DNA of 42,740 nucleotides from Bacillota bacterium. GTDB taxonomy: Bacteria > Bacillota > Desulfitobacteriia > Desulfitobacteriales > JAJXUE01. The notes beneath the pieces are model-generated. The model saw only the letters and a program-made list of their open reading frames with translations. It was not told where the DNA came from and made no database searches. Every line of letters starts with the position of its first letter. Position 1 is the stretch's first letter. Position numbers and translations under genes: made by a program. Shown here in pieces: positions 5,836-41,940 of the stretch. The DNA lies in the NCBI GenBank assembly GCA_021811155.1, contig JAJZPO010000018.1, positions 1-42,740 of the forward strand, read 5' to 3'.

Positions 5836-6498
5836 CTACGGGTCAGGGGGCGTGTAAGCCTGTTCCCAGGCAAAGCGTCCTACTTCATTGTAAGAGACAA
5901 GGGCTATCTGGGTGGGTGAATCGGGAATTTCAGCCGGCACAAATTTTACGTTGACCACGGCTTCAATCCGGGATCTTACCCTGGAGGTCTGGCTCCCCCT
6001 GACAAGCTTATAGGTCCCAACGCTTTGCACGGTGATATTGTTGACCAGTATCCTGGGATCAACGGTATCCGGAGTTGTGAAATTGTACTCGATGACCCAG
6101 GTATACCCGGCAGTGGCAGTGTCACCGGTAGTGGGGTTAACGACATCAAAGGTTCCGTTCGCTGACGAATAATATACCGTACCCCCGCTGGTGGTTATGT
6201 TCAGGTTGTTGGAGGGCAGGAGTTTGTCCGCAGGCAGGCCAAAATCAGGATCTGTGATGTCTCCCAGATGGCTGCTTGGATGCTGGATAGAGTATTTTAC
6301 CTCAAACAAAGCGTTCTGCAGCCCCGAGTCCGCAGCGTATTTGGACTGCCACTTGTTGACCAGGCTGTTGTTGAGTTTCAGCTCCCCGGTAAGCTGCACC
6401 AGGTAAACGCTGATGAATATGGAAAATACGGCGATGCTCAGCAAGGCCAGAGGGAGAGCGTAGCCGCTCTCCCTTCGGGTTATTGTGTCGAGTCTCAA
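5836..6498 (-). CDS. PilX/GspK-like prepilin-type protein, module 1
   Basis: 220 residues from a TTG start (6496-6498), supported by a GAGGGGATGG ribosome site. The N-terminus carries RRESG followed by a long hydrophobic helix (YALPLALLSIAVF, about residues 12-32), then ALFEVKY-type alpha-helix sequence after a KYAADSGLQNAL motif typical of PilX_N proteins. The Glu at mature position 5 is absent, as in GspK-like tip subunits. The C-terminus ends in a beta-rich region. It is the last gene of module 1 and is clearly paralogous to the protein at 9056-9685. It probably sits at or near a pilus tip together with the two upstream products. Confidence 0.8.
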   Translation of the reverse strand: MRLDTITRRESGYALPLALLSIAVFSIFISVYLVQLTGELKLNNSLVNKWQSKYAADSGLQNALFEVKYSIQHPSSHLGDITDPDFGLPADKLLPSNNLNITTSGGTVYYSSANGTFDVVNPTTGDTATAGYTWVIEYNFTTPDTVDPRILVNNITVQSVGTYKLVRGSQTSRVRSRIEAVVNVKFVPAEIPDSPTQIALVSYNEVGRFAWEQAYTPPDP

Positions 6499-6514
6499 AT
6501 TTCCATCCCCTCGC

Positions 6515-8173
6515 TCATTGCTGGTTGATGGTAAAGAGCGCTTTGGCGTTACCGTCGGTGACCGTAACCCCCAGGTACCCGGGCGCTATCTTGTCGCCGC
6601 TCATGGGGACATTGTTTGTGACCAAGAGCGGGGCATCACTGTCGGCCACATTGTTGACCCACAGCCTCAGGCGGTACTGCTCCGCGTTTTGGTCCCAGTC
6701 GGTCTTGGCCCGCAGGGTGGCCTGGCTGCTGAACCCGGCAATGCTGCCAGCCAGTCTCATGGAACCCTTTTCGCCGTAATAAACGTTACCGCTCTTGTCG
6801 ATACCGAAACCGGTATACTTACCCCCATTGGCATTGTTCACACCGTTGTAGAACAGGGTCAGGATGGCCAGGCTGCCGGAGTCTCCGCCGCCGGTAAACG
6901 TGACACCTACCTGGTAGTCGAAGTTCTGAACCTGGCGGTTGTAGTAGAGAACCTTGTCATTGCAGTTGCCTTTCTTTGTGATCTGGCGGACGCTGTCATC
7001 GACAGAGCCAAAGCCGCTGACATTGCCCCTGTCGATGCACCAGTCCCCCTGATTGTCATCCCTGTCATCGCCCTGCCACTGATGCTTGTTCGGGCTGTCA
7101 TCCGCTTCATTCGCGTGCGAAGTCCCGCTGGACCTGACTGTGAACGCGTTGGGCTCATTGACTATTTCAGACTCGCCGTTGCCGAGAACTTGAGGGGTGA
7201 TTGTCCAAACATCGTAGGTGGTATTATCGGTCACAGCGCTCTTCGCCAGGCTGATGTGCAGCGTATAGTCATCCTTGGCCCTGACCTCATCGGAGAGGCG
7301 GCCGTTGCCTATGTTGGAGAAAATGATAAGGTTCGAGTCGGAGTCACTGTAATTTCTGGGGTCAAATGCGGCGCCATGCTTGACGATGATTACCTTTGTA
7401 TCCTGGGCGCGATGCCCGCTGTCAGTGTGACTGAAGTGGGTGTATTGGCCAGTGATCTTGACATTAGCCACACTGGTGGTGCTCAAACGCCCTTCATCGT
7501 CGTCGTAGTCCTCATCGTCCTCCTCACAGGAGCCGGTGCGAGCCCAGTTAAACTGCTGCACATTGATGGAAGGAATATTGTCACCGGTTCCTCCGCTGCC
7601 CTGATTGTTATTGCCTCCGCCGGTATGGCGGAGCACAATGGGACTGTCATGAATGCCGGCCACCCTGGCCATGGCCGTGTCCTGAAAGGTCATAACCGAG
7701 TCACCGACCTTGACTGTTATCTCCATCTGGACGCGGTCGGCTACGGTTCCGGTCCTGGTGAGCGGGGTAAAAGCCGCCAGGTTGATGGCGTGGATCAAAA
7801 AGGTCTTAACCCCGTTCTCCTGCAGGTAAATCTCCTGTTTATCCGCTGAACCGTCATAACCGTAAACTTTGCTGACAACTCCCCTGTCATTTAGAATCTG
7901 GATGGTATCACCCGTAGTGGTATTTCCCACCGAAGAGATTACATTAATTCCCGGAGCCTGCTCAATATCGCTCACCATCCTGGTCAGCACCTGCCTGGCG
8001 CTGATGCGGCTGTCCATCTCGTCGCGCTGCCTGGCCAACAGTTTTTGGCCGCTGCCTGTGGCGTTCACCAAGGACAAGCCGATTACCGTCAAAATGGTTA
8101 TGCTGGCCAGAACTTCAACCAGGGTAAAACCTTGTTGACGTTTGGATAATCTGGCAAACAAACGATAGAACAT
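6515..8173 (-). CDS. Large PilW-like prepilin with lectin-like C-terminal region, module 1
   Basis: I place the start at ATG 8171-8173, with GGAGG 8 bases upstream; an in-frame GTG lies 9 bases earlier. The product is 552 residues, about three times the length of an ordinary minor pilin. A class III leader ending KRQQG precedes FTLVEVLASITIL. The middle is beta-rich with an acidic run (CEEDDEDYDDDEG). The last 190 residues, with motifs such as LYYNRQVQNFDYQV, LTLFYNGVNN, YGEKGSM, LRLWV and PGYLGVTV, resemble a concanavalin A-like jelly roll. A role as a pilus-tip adhesin is inferred. The paralogue is at 9701-11251. Confidence 0.82.
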   Translation of the reverse strand: MFYRLFARLSKRQQGFTLVEVLASITILTVIGLSLVNATGSGQKLLARQRDEMDSRISARQVLTRMVSDIEQAPGINVISSVGNTTTGDTIQILNDRGVVSKVYGYDGSADKQEIYLQENGVKTFLIHAINLAAFTPLTRTGTVADRVQMEITVKVGDSVMTFQDTAMARVAGIHDSPIVLRHTGGGNNNQGSGGTGDNIPSINVQQFNWARTGSCEEDDEDYDDDEGRLSTTSVANVKITGQYTHFSHTDSGHRAQDTKVIIVKHGAAFDPRNYSDSDSNLIIFSNIGNGRLSDEVRAKDDYTLHISLAKSAVTDNTTYDVWTITPQVLGNGESEIVNEPNAFTVRSSGTSHANEADDSPNKHQWQGDDRDDNQGDWCIDRGNVSGFGSVDDSVRQITKKGNCNDKVLYYNRQVQNFDYQVGVTFTGGGDSGSLAILTLFYNGVNNANGGKYTGFGIDKSGNVYYGEKGSMRLAGSIAGFSSQATLRAKTDWDQNAEQYRLRLWVNNVADSDAPLLVTNNVPMSGDKIAPGYLGVTVTDGNAKALFTINQQ

Positions 8174-8178
8174 TAAAC

Positions 8179-8610
8179 TCACCTCCCTAGTAATTCAGTT
8201 GTCAGGTCCACGTGCCTGTCCTGGCCCGACCAGTTGTCGTGCCACTGTACCGTCACCGTAACCAGCATATCGTTGTACTGATAAGCCCTGTGCTGTGAAT
8301 ACCTAGTCTCCCTTTGCACTGGCGTAACCCAGCGGGTAAAAGTCTTTGTGCGGTTTGCCTGGGTATACTTCTCTATGGTTTGGGGAGATGTGACAAAATC
8401 CGAGGTGGAGGAGTGGGAAGTTGACAGCATTTCTTCCAGGTAATCGGTAGCCAGGCTCATGGCAATGGTTCTCTCCTGAGCCTGTTGGCTGAGCATCACA
8501 CCCCGGTTGATCATCTGGACTAAGGGAATTAGCACAACAACCAATATGACCGCTGCCACAACCACTTCCACCAGGGTAAATCCGGACTCACCTGCAAGCT
8601 TGGCGCGCAT
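8179..8610 (-). CDS. PilV-like minor prepilin, module 1
   Basis: 143 residues, start ATG 8608-8610 with GGGAGGTG just upstream. The short leader MRAKLAGESG precedes FTLVEVVVAAVILVVVLIPLV, a typical type IV prepilin cleavage and assembly motif with Glu at mature position 5. A helical stretch (SLATDYLEEML) resembles PilV/GspI minor pilins. It is the first gene behind a c-di-GMP-I-type riboswitch and its terminator (8624-8654). The paralogue at 11256-11720 has the same position in module 2. Confidence 0.85.
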   Translation of the reverse strand: MRAKLAGESGFTLVEVVVAAVILVVVLIPLVQMINRGVMLSQQAQERTIAMSLATDYLEEMLSTSHSSTSDFVTSPQTIEKYTQANRTKTFTRWVTPVQRETRYSQHRAYQYNDMLVTVTVQWHDNWSGQDRHVDLTTELLGR

Positions 8611-8623
8611 CTCACACCTCCCT

Positions 8624-8654
8624 CAAACAAAAACTTGTCCGCACACCGGACAAG
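8624..8654 (-). terminator. Riboswitch-controlled terminator 1 (expression platform)
   Basis: In minus-strand RNA, CTTGTCCG and CGGACAAG pair over 8 bases around GTGTG, followed by TTTTTGTTTG, immediately before the ribosome site of the PilV-like gene. The 5' arm region GTCCGG (8646-8651) is also complementary to CCGGAC inside the aptamer (8682-8687), providing mutually exclusive structures. Confidence 0.88.
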
Positions 8655-8677
8655 CTGGGAGAGAACTTGATTCTCCC

Positions 8678-8823
8678 GGCAGTCCGGCTGGCCTAACCAT
8701 ATGTCGAGGTTCGAAGTGTGAAGCACGCTGTTCGATCTCATTCGACTCCGTGCCTAAGGCTTCTACCTTGACCTGGCCGTAGCTCCGTGACTTTGCGTCA
8801 CCAGATTTCCCTGGTTTTGCCCT
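8678..8823 (-). promoter_or_regulatory. c-di-GMP-I (GEMM-I) type riboswitch aptamer 1
   Basis: In minus-strand RNA the hallmarks appear in order. GGCAAAACC opens the domain. A hairpin with a GAAA tetraloop (CCAGG-GAAA-TCTGG) follows, then GACGCAAAGTC, ACGGAGCTA, a long variable arm, and AGCCGGACTGCC closing against GGCA. The arm is about 80 bases, much longer than usual, with nested pairings CCA/TGG, GTC/GAC, AGGT/ACCT, GAAG/CTTC and GCACG/CGTGC. A terminator follows at 8624-8654. The ligand is inferred from the conserved core. The aptamer leads a minor pilin operon and closely matches a second copy at 11783-11923. Confidence 0.88.
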
Positions 8824-9013
8824 TAACAGGTAATTTTTTCAAGTGTTTTTATTCTTTGTATTCTGCATCTGCGCGTTGTTTCCTGCCGGATTAGAAAACT
8901 TTTTGAAAAAAAATTGGTTTTTACCCGCTCATGGCGGTGTTTTGCCGAAATGTTTACTTTATTAGCTCTTTTCCGATATAGGGGCAGGGCTGCTGCCTTT
9001 CTGGCACAGCGAA
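8824..9013. other. Spacer upstream of riboswitch 1
   Basis: This AT-rich spacer should contain the promoter of module 1 on the minus strand. I see A/T runs and a possible GC-rich hairpin around 8930-8962, but no sigma-A or sigma-D promoter with both elements at good spacing. No gene is present. Confidence 0.4.
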
Positions 9014-9040
9014 AGCCCCGAAACGAATTGTTTCGGGGCT
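9014..9040 (-). terminator. Strong hairpin ending module 2
   Basis: A perfect 11-base-pair stem (AGCCCCGAAAC at 9014-9024, GTTTCGGGGCT at 9030-9040) with a 5-base loop begins 16 bases past the stop of the PilX-like gene at 9056. On the minus strand only TTTCGCT follows, so the U-tract is weak and some read-through into module 1 is possible. Confidence 0.7.
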
Positions 9041-9055
9041 CATCACCAGAAAAAA

Positions 9056-9685
9056 TCAATTTTCCCAGGCAAACTTCGTCGTCACTGTTTGCTGCGATAC
9101 AGTTTGGATATTGACCGCTGAGTCAGGAATGTTTAGAGGTACAAAAGTTACCTGCACACTCTGCCCGATCCGGTATTGGGTGCCGCCGGAGTTCAGGGTA
9201 CCCACGCTCTCTATCACGAGATTGTAGGTCAGGGTATTCTGATAGGTTGCTGTGCCGGTCGTGGTGGCAGGTGTAGCAGGTTCGGTGCCGTTGGAAATGA
9301 CGGCCCATTTATAGCTGCCTACCGGTTGGCCGCCCGTGTCCTTCAGAGTCCCTTGGTGGGAAGAAACGACAGGAGCGGCCAGGTTCAGGTCGTTGACGCC
9401 TGGCAGCAGGGTGACGCCGTCAGCGCCAAAAGCGTTTTTTGTCAGGTCCCATGCGTAAGTCTTTCCGCCGTTTTCTATGGCTGTCTTAATGTTGTAGAGG
9501 GCATTTTCAACTCCCGATTCCGCCACGTAGCGGGCCTGCCAACTTTTGACCAAGCCATTGTTCACTCGATACTCATTGGTCAGGATGCTGAAATAGACGG
9601 TAATCAGGATCGAGAAGACTACCAGACTCAGCAGGGCAAAGGGGAGCGCATACCCCCTCTGCCCGGTCACCACGTTAAACCGCAC
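9056..9685 (-). CDS. PilX/GspK-like prepilin-type protein, module 2
   Basis: 209 residues from a GTG start (9683-9685) with GGGGTGG upstream. The N-terminal GQRGYALPFALLSLVVFSIL helix and the following RYVAESGVENALYNIK motif match PilX_N proteins and closely parallel the module 1 protein at 5836-6498. Glu at mature position 5 is missing. The C-terminal half is beta-rich and ends in TTKFAWEN. The gene closes module 2 and starts 15 bases after the large prepilin gene. It is probably a tip-associated minor subunit, with no sign of decay. Confidence 0.8.
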   Translation of the reverse strand: MRFNVVTGQRGYALPFALLSLVVFSILITVYFSILTNEYRVNNGLVKSWQARYVAESGVENALYNIKTAIENGGKTYAWDLTKNAFGADGVTLLPGVNDLNLAAPVVSSHQGTLKDTGGQPVGSYKWAVISNGTEPATPATTTGTATYQNTLTYNLVIESVGTLNSGGTQYRIGQSVQVTFVPLNIPDSAVNIQTVSQQTVTTKFAWEN

Positions 9686-9700
9686 AAATCCACCCCATTT

Positions 9701-11251
9701 CTAGTATCTGGTTACGGTAAACGTGGCATTTGTTTTCGAGCTGGTAACAGTTACACCCAGGTAGCCAGGGCCCAAAAGCCCGCTGTTATCTGTGGGAACC
9801 TTATAGATCGTGGCGACCGGCTTGTCCGAATCCTTAACATTAGTGACCCAGAGTCTCAGCCTGGGCTGCTGCCTGTCCGTGTCAAAGTCGGCTTTAGCCC
9901 GCAGCACAGCCTGGCCGCCGGAATAGTTGGACTCACTGCTCGGAATTTGGGTAAAGGAACCCTTGGCTCCATAGAATACCCCGTACTGGTTGACCCCAAA
10001 ACCGTAGTACCAGCCTCCGCCGCCGTTCGTATTATTCAAACCGTTGTAGAACAAGGTCAGGAGCGCCAATTGGTCAGTTTTGGAACCGCCGCTGGAAATG
10101 TTTACAGTCACCTGGTAGTCAAAGGTAGTCACCGGGTGGTTATAATAAAGAATTTTATCATTAGCGTTGACGTTTTTGGTAATTACCTTGTTGAAGCAGT
10201 CAACTCGGCCAAAGCCTTGCACATCCCCCCGGTCCGCCACCCAGTCCGGTGTATTATCGCTCTTCCCGTCATCCCATGAGGTGTCGTCAGGTCCGGAAGT
10301 TGTGCCGGTCTGATTCTTGCCGCCCTGGAAGCTCCCCGTATTTACGCTGAGCGCCCCCAGCATGAAAGCCTTCTCAGGTTGATTTCCGAAGATATTAGGA
10401 GTAATTGCCCAGACACCGTAAGTGGTGTTGGTCACGTTACTAGACTTCAGTTCGAACCAAATGTTAGTCCCAGAACCGTCAGTACGGATAATCTTGGCGC
10501 TGCTGCCGTTGTTGGCATAGATTACATTGTCGCTGTTTCCCAGTTTTGAACCTTGCGGCACAAGCACAACGTAAGTGCTGGAATCAACCTTGGTATCAAA
10601 GTGGGTATCTACAGCCGAAATATGGATGGTTTGCTGTGCGTGGTATCCATCGACGTCGTTGTCGTCGTCATCGTTTTCGTCATTGTTCTCAGTATTCACC
10701 TTGACCACCCCGTTAAACTGCACGTTGTTCGGAGCCACCATGGTGATGCGGGGCACTCCTGTGGTGTTGAAGTTTACGGAGCGGCACACGGCGGTGTCAC
10801 TCAAGGTCATCTGGGAACTGCCCACGGAAACCGTCATGGAAATGTTAACCTGGTCGTTTTTCCCGGGCGGGCTGAAAAACGCCGTACTGATAGCATGGAT
10901 GAGATAGATTGTCTGCCCGTTGTTGTCTTTAAGGTATACCTGTTTCTTAGTACTGTCAAAACCGTAAGTAAGGGTTGTGTTATCCTGCTCAGTCAAGAGA
11001 ATGGTTTGAGGATCAATTACATTCGAGTATTTGGCTGACTGGATGTCCTTCACCATGCGCGTTAAAACCGCCCTGGCGCTAACCCGGCTGTCCATTTCAT
11101 TGCTCTGCCTGGAGAGAAAAACCTGGCCTTTGCCGGCAGCGCTCAGCACCGCCATGCCGATTACTGAGAGGATCACCACGCTGGCGGTGACTTCCAACAG
11201 GGTAAAGCCCCGTTCTCGTTTGAGCCATAGCTTCAACAGCCTTGTTAACAT
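9701..11251 (-). CDS. Large PilW-like prepilin with lectin-like C-terminal region, module 2
   Basis: 516 residues, ATG start with GGGAGGTG upstream. The leader MLTRLLKLWLKRERG precedes FTLLEVTASVVIL, a clear prepilin peptidase site. After the pilin-like N-terminal 150 residues comes an acidic run (NDENDDDDNDVDG, near residue 200) that might bind cations. A C-terminal domain of about 180 residues (YYNHPVTTFDYQV, LTLFYNGLNN, YGFGV, LRLWV, GPGYLGVTV) resembles LamG/concanavalin A-like folds. It aligns along its whole length with the module 1 protein but differs in the central insertions. The adhesin role is inferred from architecture only. Confidence 0.82.
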   Translation of the reverse strand: MLTRLLKLWLKRERGFTLLEVTASVVILSVIGMAVLSAAGKGQVFLSRQSNEMDSRVSARAVLTRMVKDIQSAKYSNVIDPQTILLTEQDNTTLTYGFDSTKKQVYLKDNNGQTIYLIHAISTAFFSPPGKNDQVNISMTVSVGSSQMTLSDTAVCRSVNFNTTGVPRITMVAPNNVQFNGVVKVNTENNDENDDDDNDVDGYHAQQTIHISAVDTHFDTKVDSSTYVVLVPQGSKLGNSDNVIYANNGSSAKIIRTDGSGTNIWFELKSSNVTNTTYGVWAITPNIFGNQPEKAFMLGALSVNTGSFQGGKNQTGTTSGPDDTSWDDGKSDNTPDWVADRGDVQGFGRVDCFNKVITKNVNANDKILYYNHPVTTFDYQVTVNISSGGSKTDQLALLTLFYNGLNNTNGGGGWYYGFGVNQYGVFYGAKGSFTQIPSSESNYSGGQAVLRAKADFDTDRQQPRLRLWVTNVKDSDKPVATIYKVPTDNSGLLGPGYLGVTVTSSKTNATFTVTRY

Positions 11252-11255
11252 AGGC

Positions 11256-11720
11256 TCACCTCCCGACTAGTTCACTGGTTAGGGCCACCTGTCTGGTGAC
11301 TCCTGCTGTATTGTCCTGCCAGGACACCTTTACCGTCACCAGCATGTCATAAAAGATATAGGCTCCGTTTTTTGTCGGATAGGAGTCTTGAGGGGTGTAA
11401 CTTGCAGAAGTGGTAAACGCTTTGGAAAGATTTGCTTCAACGGTTTGCGTTGTAGTCTGGCTTTGAATTATCCCCGCCAGAGTAGCATTCGTAACAAAAT
11501 CATTGGGCTGCTGGGGATACTGGGCCTTAATCCGCTCCAACTGCTGCATGGCCAGGCCCATGGCGACAGTCCTGGTCTGGGCTTCCTGGCTCAGCCGCAT
11601 GCCCCAGCTAATAACCGTGACCAAAGTCATCAAAGCTACCGTGAGGATGATGGCAGCTATCATGACTTCCACCAAAGTAAATCCGGTCTCATTTGAGCGC
11701 TCCCGGTGCAGAACTTGCAA
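11256..11720 (-). CDS. PilV-like minor prepilin, module 2
   Basis: The frame is open to a TTG at 11735, but that codon lies in the terminator tail. I prefer a TTG at 11718-11720, preceded by GGGGGGTGG, giving 154 residues. The leader QVLHRERSNETG is followed by FTLVEVMIAAIILTVAL, with Glu at mature position 5. The helical MGLAMQQLERIKAQ stretch fits PilV/GspI-type minor pilins. It is the first gene after riboswitch 2 and its terminator and is paralogous to 8179-8610. The non-ATG start and the ribosome site right after the terminator suggest tight expression control. Confidence 0.82.
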   Translation of the reverse strand: MQVLHRERSNETGFTLVEVMIAAIILTVALMTLVTVISWGMRLSQEAQTRTVAMGLAMQQLERIKAQYPQQPNDFVTNATLAGIIQSQTTTQTVEANLSKAFTTSASYTPQDSYPTKNGAYIFYDMLVTVKVSWQDNTAGVTRQVALTSELVGR

Positions 11721-11733
11721 TAGTCCACCCCCC

Positions 11734-11763
11734 AAAAGAAAACTGCCCGCAGGTAACGGACAG
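11734..11763 (-). terminator. Riboswitch-controlled terminator 2 (expression platform)
   Basis: In minus-strand RNA, CTGTCCG and CGGGCAG form a 7-base-pair stem (one G-U pair) around TTACCTG, followed by TTTTCTTTT. The 5' arm GTCCG (11757-11761) is complementary to CGGAC at the 3' edge of the aptamer (11787-11791). This is the same arrangement as in riboswitch 1. Confidence 0.85.
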
Positions 11764-11782
11764 GCGGAACCCCCATCTACCT

Positions 11783-11923
11783 GGCGGTCCGGCCGGCATA
11801 GCCAGATCTTGAGGGGTCCAGCACGGCGTCAGATCTCAATCGGATTTCGTGCCTCGGACTTCGTACCTCTAAGCTGGCGTTAGCCCCGTGACTTTGCGTC
11901 ACCAGGTTTCCCTGGTTTTTGCC
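11783..11923 (-). promoter_or_regulatory. c-di-GMP-I (GEMM-I) type riboswitch aptamer 2
   Basis: In minus-strand RNA: GGCAAAAACC, then a GAAA-capped hairpin (CCAGG-GAAA-CCTGG), TGACGCAAAGTCACGGGGCTA, an extended arm of about 80 bases, and GGCCGGACCGCC at the 3' edge. The core matches copy 1 almost exactly. The arm differs in sequence but keeps pairings (CCAG/CTGG, CTU..GAGG/CCTC..AAG, GTCC/GGAC, GCACG/CGTGC), so it looks conserved as structure. It precedes the first prepilin gene of module 2. The ligand c-di-GMP is inferred from the core motif. Confidence 0.88.
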
Positions 11924-12105
11924 TTTTTCAGATTGGATTTGTTCTGGCTTTTATTATTTTTTCGACATGCCCGCGAATTTTCCCCGGGGCTTCCATATAA
12001 ACGGGTCCGAAACACGTATAATTGGGTAATTCATATCCTTGAACTTGAACCCTGTTTTTCACGGCACGCTGCACGCCGTTTAGATGGTGTGGTCCCATAA
12101 CAGAA
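11924..12105. other. Spacer upstream of riboswitch 2
   Basis: No gene is visible. On the minus strand, TTCAAG and TATACG with a 17-base spacer (about 12015-12045) could be a weak sigma-A promoter. A TGTCGAA heptamer (11961-11967) matches a Spo0A box core, but one such heptamer is expected by chance in a window of this size. Both are low-confidence candidates. Confidence 0.3.
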
Positions 12106-21153: not shown

Positions 21154-22827
21154 TCAATAGGTGGAAATTACGGTCATGGCCTCTTCCAGGGTGGTAAGAC
21201 CCGCCCTGGCCTTGGCGATGCCGTCCATTCTCAGGGTCTGCATCCCGGTCAGTACTGCGGCCCGTTCTATCTCGGCTGTACTGGCCCGGGCCAGAACCAT
21301 ATCCTTGATCTCCTGGTTGTACACCAGGAGTTCCTGCACGGGTATCCTGCCCTGGAAGCCTGTGTTGTTGCAGAGGCGGCAGCCTTTGCCGCGGTAAAAG
21401 GTCAAATCGTCCTCAACGCCAAGCCTTTTGGCAAGCGCGGGGGAAATCTGATAGGCTTCCTTGCAGTGCGGGCAAATCTTGCGCACCAGCCTCTGAGACA
21501 TAACCCCGATGATGGAAGAAGAGATCAAAAAAGGTTCTATCCCCATGTCCATCAGCCTGGTGATGGTAGCAGCGGCGCTGTTGGTATGCAGGGTTGACAG
21601 GACCAAATGCCCTGTCAGGGCTGCGCCAATGGCTATAGACACAGTCTCAGTGTCCCGGATTTCCCCCACCATCACCACGTCGGGGTCCTGCCGCAGGATA
21701 GCCCTGAGGCCGCTGGCAAAAGTCAGACCCGCCTTGGCGTTGACATTGACCTGGTTGATACCGGTCAGGGTATACTCTACAGGTTCTTCCACCGAGATGA
21801 TATTGGTTTCTTCGTCATTCAACTCCTGCAGCGCCGAATAGAGGACGGTGGTTTTGCCGCTCCCGGTAGGGCCGGTAATCAGGAGCATGCCATTGGGCTG
21901 CTGAATCAGCTGGCGAAAGGTTTCGACCATGTCTGGCTGCATGCCCAGCGCGTCTATGGGGCGCAGGCTGCCCGATTTGTCGAGAATCCGCATCACAATT
22001 TTTTCCCCGTGCACGGTGGGGAGGGAGTTCACCCGCAGGTCAATTTCCTTGCCCTCCACCTTCATCGGGATGCGGCCGTCCTGGGGAATCCGCTTTTCGG
22101 CGATGTCCATACTGGCCATGATTTTGAGCCTTGAGAGAATTGCCGCCTGGGTTTTGCGCGGGGAGGACATAGCTTTGTGCAAAATGCCGTCGATGCGGTA
22201 ACGTACCACCACTTCTTTTTCCTGGGGTTCTACGTGGATGTCGCTGGCCCTGCTGGCCACCGCCTGGGCAATCATCGAGTTAACAAACTTGACAATAGGG
22301 CCTTCTTCGATGATTTCATCGACATCTTCTTCTTGCTGCAAGGTCTCTACTTCGGGACCGTAATCCTCCATCATCTTGTCAAAGGATTCCTTAACCCCGA
22401 GGTACTGCTTGATAGCCATCATGAGGTCAGTCTCAGCAGCCAGAACAGGCGTAATGTCGTTGCCCGTGGAAATTCTGATGTCATCAATAGCAAAAACATT
22501 AAGAGGGTCAACCATGGCCAATATCAACTTGTTTCCCCTTTTTCCAATGGGGATCACTTTATGGCGCAGAGCCAGGTTTTCGCTGATCAATTGGGCTGTC
22601 TGCGGGTCCACCGGAGTTTTGGCAATATTCACATAGGGAATGCCCAGCTGAAATTCCAAAACCGCCATCAGGTTGGGCTCTGACAGATATCCCATCTGGA
22701 CCAGAATAGTACCGATTTTCTCCTTGGCGTTGGCCTGCACATCGAGGGCTTCCTGCAACTGTTCCGGGGTGATTAGGCCGTGCTCAATTAAAATTTCGCC
22801 TAGAAGTTTGCGCCCGCCAATGCTCAT
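21154..22827 (-). CDS. pilB: Pilus extension ATPase PilB with tandem MshEN motifs
   Basis: 557 residues. Residues 8-31 (LLGEILIEHGLITPEQL to Q) and 37-60 (KIGTILVQMGYLSEPNL to Q) form two 24-residue MshEN-type motifs, known in MshE to bind c-di-GMP. Walker A is GPTGSGKTT (319-327). The Asp box, Walker B (VVMVGEIRD) and His box (GHLVLSTLHTNSA) follow, then a tetracysteine zinc site (CPHC, CRLC). It drives pilin polymerisation on the PilC platform. It leads the pilB-T-C-A operon. c-di-GMP binding is inferred from the motif. Confidence 0.95.
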   Translation of the reverse strand: MSIGGRKLLGEILIEHGLITPEQLQEALDVQANAKEKIGTILVQMGYLSEPNLMAVLEFQLGIPYVNIAKTPVDPQTAQLISENLALRHKVIPIGKRGNKLILAMVDPLNVFAIDDIRISTGNDITPVLAAETDLMMAIKQYLGVKESFDKMMEDYGPEVETLQQEEDVDEIIEEGPIVKFVNSMIAQAVASRASDIHVEPQEKEVVVRYRIDGILHKAMSSPRKTQAAILSRLKIMASMDIAEKRIPQDGRIPMKVEGKEIDLRVNSLPTVHGEKIVMRILDKSGSLRPIDALGMQPDMVETFRQLIQQPNGMLLITGPTGSGKTTVLYSALQELNDEETNIISVEEPVEYTLTGINQVNVNAKAGLTFASGLRAILRQDPDVVMVGEIRDTETVSIAIGAALTGHLVLSTLHTNSAAATITRLMDMGIEPFLISSSIIGVMSQRLVRKICPHCKEAYQISPALAKRLGVEDDLTFYRGKGCRLCNNTGFQGRIPVQELLVYNQEIKDMVLARASTAEIERAAVLTGMQTLRMDGIAKARAGLTTLEEAMTVISTY

Positions 22828-23435: not shown

Positions 23436-23855
23436 CTAGTTAAACACTTCTTTATATGAAGCAACCTGCCATCCCCCGCTGGGATTGGGGATGATGATCA
23501 CTTCCAGCTTGCGCACTGCGGAGCCGCTTTTGCCGGTTGAGAGAACTGTAACACCAGGGTTTGGCGTCCCGAAATCCAGGCTGAAGGAGCCTGCGCCCAA
23601 AGTGTAGCTTGACTCCGGCCGCCAGTCCGGATCGATGGCCAGCTGGGAACGTGCCAGTTCAACCCCGGCTTCGGCCAGGTAGAGGGCCTGCTTGCTCTGG
23701 ACATAGCGGGTGGTCATGCGCAGATCCGCCTGGGCCAGATACAAGTAGGTCGAGGAAAGCAGAAAGACGGCCAGTACGGTAATCAGGCTAATCAGACTGG
23801 CTCCGCCTGCCTGATTCCCTCTTAGTCCGCCCGCCGTTTTATTGTCAGCTTCCAT
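23436..23855 (-). CDS. PilX-like prepilin-type protein
   Basis: 139 residues from ATG 23853-23855, preceded by GGGGTGG; the longer frame to 23900 overlaps the upstream gene further and lacks a ribosome site. A hydrophobic segment (SLISLITVLAVFLLSSTYLYLA, about residues 20-41) is followed by SKQALYLAEAGVELARSQL, the signature of PilX N-terminal domains. Glu at mature position 5 is absent. A beta-rich C-terminus follows. It is the last of a four-gene minor prepilin cluster and overlaps the preceding PilW-like gene by 34 bases. It is probably a minor subunit that primes pilus assembly. Confidence 0.82.
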   Translation of the reverse strand: MEADNKTAGGLRGNQAGGASLISLITVLAVFLLSSTYLYLAQADLRMTTRYVQSKQALYLAEAGVELARSQLAIDPDWRPESSYTLGAGSFSLDFGTPNPGVTVLSTGKSGSAVRKLEVIIIPNPSGGWQVASYKEVFN

Positions 23856-24283
23856 TGGTTTTCCACCCCGTTCTGCCTGGCTGTGATAACCACGTCCCAA
23901 CGCCCGGCCCCCATGTCGGCAAAGTCTACCTGTTCCACATAACTGGCCACCGGATTGGGGACACCGTCAGTTTCCTGGTACAAATCTTTTACACCGTTGT
24001 AGTCCTTGTCAGCAACATAGAAATATACGCTCTGGTTGTTGGAGCGGGTTACTTTTAATATCCCCGGCCCGGTGAGCGCAACGGTTTTTGCCTGCCGGAT
24101 TTCCCTGTCCAGCAAGCCGGCAGCGGCGCGGGCAGACTGCTGAGTCTCAATCTGACTGTTTCCCCTGGCGAATATTCTTGTCTGCAGGGTAAGGGTTTGG
24201 GCGGCGATGCTGACAACCAGGCCCATGAGCACCAGCGCCGCCAGGACCTCAATCAGGGTAAACCCCTTTTCTCGCCCGCCCAT
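23822..24283 (-). CDS. PilW-like minor prepilin
   Basis: 153 residues from ATG 24281-24283, one base after the upstream stop (TGACATG), so translation is probably coupled; no ribosome site is visible. The leader MGGREKG is followed by FTLIEVLAALVLMGLVVSIA, with Glu at mature position 5. An alpha-helical tail (ETQQSARAAAGLLDREIRQA) is typical of PilW/GspJ minor pilins. The C-terminal half is beta-rich and lacks the large lectin-like extension of the proteins at 6515 and 9701. It is third in the cluster of four. Confidence 0.85.
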   Translation of the reverse strand: MGGREKGFTLIEVLAALVLMGLVVSIAAQTLTLQTRIFARGNSQIETQQSARAAAGLLDREIRQAKTVALTGPGILKVTRSNNQSVYFYVADKDYNGVKDLYQETDGVPNPVASYVEQVDFADMGAGRWDVVITARQNGVENQWKLTIKRRAD

Positions 24284-24284
24284 G

Positions 24285-24668
24285 TCAGCGCCGCGAAAGG
24301 TAGGTTGCCAGTTCAACCCTGCCCGGGTCCGGTCCAAGCGACCAGCTGCAAGACAATCTGATTTCCAGAAGGTTTTCATTTCCGGCAACCCAGGAGCTAA
24401 ACACCTGTAAGCTCATGCCGTTTTCCAGCCTGGTTTCCACCGTTTGGCCAGGCTCAATCCTGCCGGAGGCCAGCCCCCCTTCTACTCCCATGCCTTTGAT
24501 TATTTCCAGTTCCGTCTGGGCCAGATTAACGGCTTTCGCCTTCCACTGGCTCAGGTACATAGTCCGGCGGGCGCCGGCTGAGACATGAAACAAAGTGGAG
24601 ATGCCCACGCTTAATATCAGCACTCCCACAACCGCGTCCAGCAGGACAAAGCCTCTTTCCCGTCTCAT
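24285..24668 (-). CDS. PilV/GspI-like minor prepilin
   Basis: 127 residues from ATG 24666-24668, which overlaps the upstream stop as ATGA. The leader MRRERG precedes FVLLDAVVGVLILSVGISTL, with Asp instead of Glu at mature position 5, which is unusual. The KAVNLAQTELEIIKG stretch matches PilV/GspI proteins. The rest forms a small beta-rich domain. Tight overlaps on both sides indicate one transcript. It is probably a minor pilin of the initiation complex. Confidence 0.83.
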   Translation of the reverse strand: MRRERGFVLLDAVVGVLILSVGISTLFHVSAGARRTMYLSQWKAKAVNLAQTELEIIKGMGVEGGLASGRIEPGQTVETRLENGMSLQVFSSWVAGNENLLEIRLSCSWSLGPDPGRVELATYLSRR

Positions 24669-25012
24669 GAACCTGTCACCCTTCCCGTGTTTGCATCCAG
24701 AACATAGGTTTTGCCGGTCGGGCTTGGGGGAATCCCGCTTAGATAGGGCCCGTCCCACCCCGGTATCCCGCCTGCCGGATTCTGCAAGAGGTAACTGAGT
24801 TCAGCCGGAATCACGCCTGTATCCAGGCGGAACTGCCTGACAGCCCCCTCAATCAGCTGAATGTTGGCCTTATCAGCCTTGTCACCCGCCTTGCCCAGCA
24901 TGGAGGTAACATTTGGCGCAGCGATAGTGAAAATCACCCCAACTATGATGATTACGGATAACACCTCAACCAGGGTGAAGCCCCGGCACTGTTTAATTAG
25001 TTTGCTGGACAT
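24665..25012 (-). CDS. GspG/PilE-like prepilin
   Basis: 115 residues. The leader MSSKLIKQCRG precedes FTLVEVLSVIIIVGVIFTIAAPNV, with Glu at mature position 5. The sequence then follows GspG-type pseudopilins: IQLIEGAVRQFRLDTGVIP, LQNP, GWDGPYL, and a C-terminal YVLDANTGRV. This resembles the major pseudopilin of type II secretion, so a secretion-like pseudopilus is an alternative to a pilus role. No second secretion ATPase or secretin is in the window. It is first in the four-gene cluster. Confidence 0.87.
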   Translation of the reverse strand: MSSKLIKQCRGFTLVEVLSVIIIVGVIFTIAAPNVTSMLGKAGDKADKANIQLIEGAVRQFRLDTGVIPAELSYLLQNPAGGIPGWDGPYLSGIPPSPTGKTYVLDANTGRVTGS

Positions 25013-40936: not shown

Positions 40937-41317
40937 CTAAGCTGCGCCCATCTTCTTAGCTAGGTTATCAAGTCTTTCGGGGTCATCCATGAGTGTTTGC
41001 TGCAAATTGTTATCGATTTGACCGTTTGTCCATTGCTCCTGTTCCAAGCGAACATCGATATTTTGACCGAGGTTTTGGCTGATAGCCTCATCGTTCCCAG
41101 CTTGTGAGAATATTGACTTCGCCACGGCGGCGGTTAACTTGCCAACACCCCACATGGCCAGTCCGGCTACAATTGTACGCAGCGTAACCGCTTGCCAGCT
41201 GGCGCCGGCGAAATAACTGGTAGCCAAAATCAAAATGCCGGTACCTATGCCCAGATAAGTAGGAAAGGCGGTTTGCCACCGGCCTTGTTCAGCCATGCTA
41301 CCCCCGTTTGCCTTCAT
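40937..41317 (-). CDS. Small membrane protein between pilZ and sigD
   Basis: 126 residues, ATG start with AAGAGGGG upstream, overlapping the PilZ gene by 4 bases. Two hydrophobic helices (about residues 19-40 and 43-64) are followed by a cytoplasmic-like acidic/amide-rich tail. I do not recognise a family. Conserved placement next to sigD and flhG would point to a flagellar role, for example a membrane adaptor, but nothing in the sequence proves this. Confidence 0.65.
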   Translation of the reverse strand: MKANGGSMAEQGRWQTAFPTYLGIGTGILILATSYFAGASWQAVTLRTIVAGLAMWGVGKLTAAVAKSIFSQAGNDEAISQNLGQNIDVRLEQEQWTNGQIDNNLQQTLMDDPERLDNLAKKMGAA

Positions 41318-41940
41318 ATGAGACCCCTCTTACGCAGTTCAAGTTGTTGCTTAAACACCCAGGAGATGATGTTATCTCTCTGCTTATCCTCCAGGTCCAG
41401 AAACCTGACTCCAATCTGATGTTTCCCCGGCTGCTCCAGCACATCCCGGACAACTTCACCCCGGCAGGCAAACACGAGTTTGTCACAATTAATGGATATA
41501 TCAAGCAGTGTACCCGGGGCCATGGGCCTGGGACAATAGAATTTTATGCCGCCGCCACTGACATCGATAGTCTTAGACTCAATAGAGTACTCCGTGTTCA
41601 CCTCATTGGCCGTTAGCGGCAGGCTGGCATCCACTCTTACAAAGGACCTTCGCTGGAAACGTCTGGTGTCGTTGGGAAAAACAATTTTGAATAGGGGGAT
41701 AGGATCGAAGAGTACCTGAGTAATCTCAGTGGTAGCGGCGAAGCACGCTACCCGGTCCCAGAACAGGATTGTAATGGATTCTCCAACCCGCAGCGGCAGC
41801 AGCCCCCCGCCTTCCAGGAATGGTATGCCCAGGGCAATACCGGTTTCCTGAACGTCTTCAACCTTAGTCCTATAGGTACCTTCCCAACCGGCGCGGAAAT
41901 ATTGCACTTCGATCATTTGACCAATAGAGATCTTACTCAT
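41314..41940 (-). CDS. PilZ-domain flagellar brake protein (YcgR/YpfB type)
   Basis: 208 residues, ATG start with GGGAGTG upstream. The N-terminal YcgR-like beta domain (about 1-95) is followed by a PilZ domain. The c-di-GMP motifs are visible: RRSFVRVDA (RxxxR) near residue 100 and DVSGGGIKF ((D/N)xSxxG) near residue 132. This family slows or stops flagellar rotation when c-di-GMP is high, by contacting motor or stator proteins. It lies 21 bases after flhG and is coupled to the next gene by an ATGA overlap. Confidence 0.92.
   Translation of the reverse strand: MSKISIGQMIEVQYFRAGWEGTYRTKVEDVQETGIALGIPFLEGGGLLPLRVGESITILFWDRVACFAATTEITQVLFDPIPLFKIVFPNDTRRFQRRSFVRVDASLPLTANEVNTEYSIESKTIDVSGGGIKFYCPRPMAPGTLLDISINCDKLVFACRGEVVRDVLEQPGKHQIGVRFLDLEDKQRDNIISWVFKQQLELRKRGLI

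Follow-up and report, generated by a model that had tools for sequence, protein, structure and literature searches.

Two duplicated riboswitch-led minor-pilin modules in a type IV pilus cluster of a spore-forming Bacillota bacterium

Two consecutive minus-strand modules, module 1 at 11933-9056 and module 2 at 8831-5836, lie in the 42,740-nucleotide stretch of Bacillota DNA analysed here (the window). In order of transcription, each consists of a c-di-GMP-I aptamer (R1 or R2), an intrinsic terminator, and the genes of three proteins: V, a PilV/GspI-like prepilin; G, a giant prepilin; and X, a GspK/PilX-like protein (Table 1). The parts are all of known kinds. Their combination is new, and the locus is real, conserved and functional-looking. 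In the open-access literature, we found no paper linking a riboswitch to a minor-pilin tip set.

We consider it probable that each module encodes, as one riboswitch-led transcription unit, a single type IV pilus tip complex. In this reading, V would be an I-like minor pilin, G a J-like minor pilin extended by an Ig-like stalk and a ConA-like lectin, and X a K-like cap. These complexes would work with the pilus machine encoded upstream, which has its own plain minor-pilin set. Each leader would be a class-I c-di-GMP riboswitch with its own terminator. In module 2, the ligand would hold the 3' strand of aptamer P3, which otherwise pairs with the 5' arm of the terminator; the terminator would then form, and the lectin-tip genes would be off at high c-di-GMP. 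The same explanation has the whole unit duplicating in an ancestor of the genus, with most of the later divergence between the copies falling in the stalk, the promoter DNA and the platform.

Organization of the locus

The twin five-part order was proposed in a preliminary description of this DNA, and the RF01051 matches, terminators and prepilin motifs bear it out. The extent is slightly greater than was described: R1, the aptamer transcribed first, extends to 11933. A hairpin followed by a U-run does stand after each aptamer, as had been claimed. Terminator-like matches as a class are 9 against 8.0 in shuffles, and the count alone carries no weight; we accept three terminators because of where they stand, how strong their stems are and how well they are conserved in relatives. 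Between the modules is a hairpin whose T tail is weak, so that modules 1 and 2 are perhaps not fully independent units. A scan of the window for sigma-70 promoters gave matches no more numerous than in shuffles. Downstream of module 2, a terminator is followed by spoIIIAA. Just upstream of the modules is a pilus machine with PilB, PilT, PilC, PilA, PilD, PilM, PilN and PilO. Within the same cluster, a third minor-pilin set, V0-W0-X0, is without a riboswitch.

Table 1. Features of the two modules and of the third minor-pilin set, in window coordinates.
Feature	Position	Strand	Evidence or remark
R1 c-di-GMP-I aptamer, module 1	11780..11933	-	RF01051 60.5 bits, E 1.6e-9; 71-nt P3-loop insert; G at ligand-specificity position
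Intrinsic terminator, R1 expression platform	11743..11763	-	Terminator scan and folding
V1, PilV/GspI-like minor prepilin, 159 aa	11256..11735	-	TIGR02523 E 2e-10 (below curated cut-off); N_methyl
G1, giant modular prepilin, 516 aa	9701..11251	-	N_methyl; model and fold search of residues 325-516; domain-wise identity
X1, GspK/PilX-like, 209 aa	9056..9685	-	Position, GYALP N-terminus, paralogy with X2, homology to X of a distant family genome (G107)
Hairpin after X1, weak T tail; possible partial terminator between modules	9015..9039	-	Read from sequence; absent from terminator-scan list
R2 c-di-GMP-I aptamer, module 2	8675..8831	-	RF01051 62.1 bits, E 6e-10; 75-nt P3-loop insert
Intrinsic terminator, R2 expression platform	8632..8656	-	Scan and folding; 5' arm GUCCGG complementary to CCGGAC of aptamer P3 3' strand (antiterminator)
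V2, PilV/GspI-like minor prepilin, 143 aa	8179..8610	-	TIGR02523 E 1e-10 (below curated cut-off); N_methyl
G2, giant modular prepilin, 555 aa; likely start ATG at 8173	6515..8182	-	N_methyl E 6e-7; 44% identity with G1
X2, GspK/PilX-like, 220 aa	5836..6498	-	42% identity with X1
Intrinsic terminator closing module 2, before spoIIIAA	5778..5799	-	Terminator scan
V0-W0-X0, third, ordinary minor-pilin set of the same pilus cluster	23436..24758	-	No RF01051 match there

The V, G and X proteins

V1 and V2 match the PilV model TIGR02523 (E 1e-10 to 2e-10, below its curated cut-off), and GspI-type models match as well. The prepilin motif PF07963 (N_methyl) is present in the V and G proteins of both modules. 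X1 and X2 begin with GYALP and match no family model, GspK and PilX included. Below threshold, PilX_N matches X0 and the X protein of a sister genus (E 0.045-0.07), and GspK matches X0 (E 0.007). The PilX/GspK-like label of the preliminary description thus keeps its footing in gene order, the N-terminal motif and sub-threshold matches in relatives, and gains no family match for X1 or X2; on that order, motif and weak similarity, we treat X as putatively K-like. The trios have the features of a minor-pilin I-J-K set: prepilin N-termini, the I-J-K order, and a K-like member without the usual prepilin Glu. The order is the same in the third set and in the trio of the distant family genome.

G1 divides into a pilin module (residues about 1-160), a variable acidic middle (about 161-324) and a predicted ConA-like, lectin-like end (about 325-516); the corresponding end of G2 is at about 368-555. 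Its full-length structure was poor (pLDDT 47), and a model of the C-terminal 192 residues was used alone; that model, built with only the two window sequences, has pLDDT 61 and pTM 0.64. In a fold search with this moderate-confidence model, the top PDB matches were soybean agglutinin, ERGIC-53, laminin G and alginate lyase, mostly ConA-like (best E 1.8e-4, TM-scores 0.3-0.5). The lectin-like end that had been read from the sequence thus has some support at the level of the fold, and it has no Pfam domain above cut-off. Searches of solved-structure sequences with G and X returned nothing significant. The C-terminal end of G is accordingly modelled as a beta-sandwich that is lectin-like at the fold level, and it may bind glycans. 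The middle contains a THF motif like that in the IPT/TIG repeats of a distant homologue, which itself matches Pfam TIG (E 6e-8) and, weakly, laminin G. There are also Asp-rich stretches at equivalent places in the middle, at about residues 186-200 of G1 and 222-232 of G2 (DNDVDG, DEDYDDDEG), that resemble calcium-binding loops and have acidic counterparts in relatives.

The nearest known arrangement is the PilA/PilB/PilC tip complex of Streptococcus sanguinis, also of a Gram-positive type IV pilus, in which a modular lectin pilin is accompanied by a GspI-like small pilin (PMC9934059, PMC8179133). PilC joins a pilin to Ig-like and ConA lectin domains and is a glycan-binding tip pilin (PMC9934059), and modular pilins are widespread (PMC8179133). 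Unlike PilC, the lectin pilin here is J-like, has a K-like partner gene and an acidic middle, is present in two copies, and has a c-di-GMP riboswitch in front.

Since pseudopili share the I-J-K set and V, G and X weakly match GspI/J/K-type families, we considered that the modules might belong to a type II-like pseudopilus serving secretion. Against this, PilT and PilM-O are encoded in the same cluster together with a PilA-type pilin, in reading through the cluster we noticed no secretin, and a lectin-ended J-like subunit fits adhesion. A secretion role is in our judgement highly improbable, and we infer that V-G-X sits at the tip of the pilus.

Two other genes in the window bear on c-di-GMP. 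The pilus extension ATPase PilB (21154-22827, minus) has an MshEN domain (PF05157, 74.5 bits). Since MshEN domains are known to bind c-di-GMP, the second messenger may affect the pilus at the protein level besides acting through the leaders. A PilZ/YcgR-type c-di-GMP receptor gene is at 41314-41940 (minus).

Duplication and divergence of the modules

All parts were said to be paralogous, and they are, with aptamer DNA at 80% identity and proteins at 42-44%. V1 and V2 are 44% identical (shuffle z 38), G1 and G2 44% over 505 columns (z 116), and X1 and X2 42% (z 46). The paralogy of each remains significant after the first 45 residues are removed. A same-genus genome (G002) has both modules with the same neighbours, distributed over two contigs (L045, L085). 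In a sister genus (G001), a single module with a single riboswitch occupies the same site, between an EF-P/zinc-ribbon gene pair and spoIIIAA. In the G tree, whose root is set by a very long outgroup branch, the two modules group together and the sister genus falls outside (support 98/98). Trees of V or X alone do not settle the order of the duplication and the genus split. The G tree and synteny agree with the suggestion that the regulator was duplicated together with the tip genes: the whole unit, including the riboswitch, duplicated in the ancestor of the genus.

The five-part unit, which the preliminary description proposed to seek in related genomes, is found twice in the same-genus genome and once in the sister genus. 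In the distant family genome (G107), there is a V-G-X trio that includes TIG-like repeats and a lectin-like end and has no riboswitch near it; the homology covers the pilin module of G (probability 98.9) and most of the length of X (98.5). Therefore, the trio of proteins probably predates its riboswitch. In 74 genomes of the order and 399 of the phylum, no full-length relative of G occurs outside the family of the window, and the duplicated package appears limited to that one small bacterial family. A scan of genome contigs anchored on SpoIIIAA recovered distant Clostridia only and no members of this family. In a weak survey of 71 sampled c-di-GMP-I loci from the home genome, the order and the phylum, the sister-genus module was the sole case of a prepilin just downstream; the survey covered up to about 1.5 kb in one orientation from the best-scoring canonical aptamers and missed the window's own modules. 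A c-di-GMP-I-GGC riboswitch (RF03167; L129 15544-15462, minus) is present in another Bacillota genome, just upstream of a PilC-like gene in a type IV pilus cluster.

The divergence is uneven. Between G1 and G2, identity is 52% in the lectin-like end, 48% in the pilin module and 28% in the middle. Between R1 and R2, it is 84% in the aptamer core and 63% in the expression platform, and the upstream 120 nt are near background. Within each module, the two species of the genus share 94-95% of the core, 94-96% of the platform and 66-67% of the upstream 120 nt, and orthologues are 66-79% identical against 40-45% for paralogues. By these comparisons, the duplicates are kept distinct, chiefly in the stalk and in regulatory DNA. 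The P3-loop insert of the aptamers has a pattern of its own: paralogues in the window genome are 65% identical there, against 58% and 51% for the orthologues, whereas core and platform group by module. Patchy gene conversion is a possible cause.

Two copies might simply be redundant, supplying the same tip under the same ligand in two doses, with no alternation. That the lectin-like end is the best conserved region between modules and that the aptamer cores are nearly alike would fit. However, the copies have been distinct since before the split of the two species, and the upstream DNA is unrelated between modules while conserved within each. We regard a pure dosage effect as rather unlikely. 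On the preferred reading of one tip complex per module, nearly identical binding cores make the ligand alone no obvious chooser between the modules, and the differing upstream DNA and platforms make differential use possible. The two tips might divide their labour and might be alternative or additive, as the preliminary description suggested. Several paralogous minor pilin/PilY1 tip operons are also known from the Myxococcus xanthus genome, where it has been proposed that they provide differently controlled caps for different pili; those are PilY1-based and phosphorelay-controlled, not riboswitch-led (PMC9109919).

The aptamers and their expression platforms

The c-di-GMP-I type assigned to both leaders holds up, with RF01051 scores above the gathering score of 35 (Table 1); the leaders of the relatives score 65.9, 61.1 and 43.1 bits. 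No other RF01051 match occurs in the window at Rfam cut-offs. The P3 loops of R1 and R2 are each enlarged by an insert of about 70 nt. At what we take to be the discriminating position, by the numbering of the Vc2 structure, the base before the GC pair is G and not A (AAGGCA and GGGCA in the window), as in all five leaders. A discriminating position between c-di-GMP and cGAMP is supported by published work (PMC9262584). By this base, R1 and R2 are of the c-di-GMP type, with binding of the ligand predicted, and c-di-GMP is presumably their actual ligand. In Geobacter metallireducens, the pilM GEMM-Ib riboswitch likewise puts a GEMM-I fold on type IV pilus genes, though it senses cGAMP and is an ON switch (PMC9262584).

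Riboswitches of this class are common, being present in 298 of the 399 genomes of the phylum. The whole genome here has only four, and two of these are 3.1 kb apart, each before a paralogous trio, so their placement is not chance. One of the others precedes an HD-domain gene (HD_5; L087 9052-9139) and the other a flgC-fliE-fliF flagellar operon (L088 2022-1935). The stem after the flagellar aptamer overlaps the aptamer 3' strand without an abutting U-run and might be an ON design.

Two stretches are invariant in all five leaders, the aptamer strand GCCGGAC and the terminator arm UGUCCG. On folding, R2 of both species forms an antiterminator of seven pairs (GCCGGAC:GUCCGGU) before the terminator 3' arm is made. 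The chance of a seven-pair strand match is about 3% for one random arm, and so the weight rests on conservation and energetics rather than on the match alone. Imposing the aptamer on R2 makes the terminator more strongly preferred, by 12.6 instead of 3.5 kcal/mol in the window and by 12.3 instead of 2.2 in the same-genus relative. In a crude, home-made cotranscriptional model, uncalibrated against switches of known sign, terminator occupancy goes up with ligand, from 0.31 to 0.98 in the window and from 0.04 to 0.83 in the relative. In both species, the geometry is like that of Cd1 of Clostridioides difficile, the class-I OFF switch of flgB, in which aptamer and terminator coexist and the antiterminator takes the aptamer 3' strand (PMC6366702, PMC9262584). 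These models lead us to predict, for module 2 only, an OFF switch with a terminator when c-di-GMP is bound.

R1 behaves differently. Imposing the aptamer changes its terminator preference from 4.4 to 3.8 kcal/mol in the window and from 0.0 to 0.1 in the relative. Occupancy in the same home-made model goes from 0.47 to 0.46 in the window and, as in an ON switch, from 0.57 to 0.00 in the relative. For the sister-genus leader, the free-energy and cotranscriptional models give opposite signs. Leaders of opposite sign, one class-I switch ON and one OFF, would let c-di-GMP exchange one lectin tip for the other, a riboswitch-run adhesin toggle. Tip exchange requires leaders differing in sign, affinity or promoter, and the regulatory DNA does differ. 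Diverged platforms that are each conserved between species, a linker in R1 able to pair with either the aptamer strand or the terminator, and the ON-like result in one of two species all lean that way. The window's own R1, however, has no computed ligand effect, the folding model is crude and uncalibrated, and in C. difficile each of the seven functional class-I switches is OFF (PMC6366702). We judge a toggle of this kind quite improbable.

The pilus genes of C. difficile are under a class-II ON switch, Cdi-2-4 of pilA1, which has a type IV pilus target in common with the modules (PMC6366702, PMC9262584). Cd1 and Cdi-2-4 are also alike with the leaders here in pairing a c-di-GMP aptamer with a transcription terminator. 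Here, the switch before pilus genes is class I and not II, it precedes tip genes and not the major pilin, and it has a long P3 insert. Its predicted OFF action in module 2 is opposite to the ON control of the C. difficile pilus. The genome also offers, in two natural and closely related leaders whose platforms have diverged, a good test pair for how the sign of a class-I switch is set. If the explanation given here is right, c-di-GMP would be tied to the identity of the pilus tip and not to the number of pili, and the polarity predicted would run against the standard view that c-di-GMP promotes pili.
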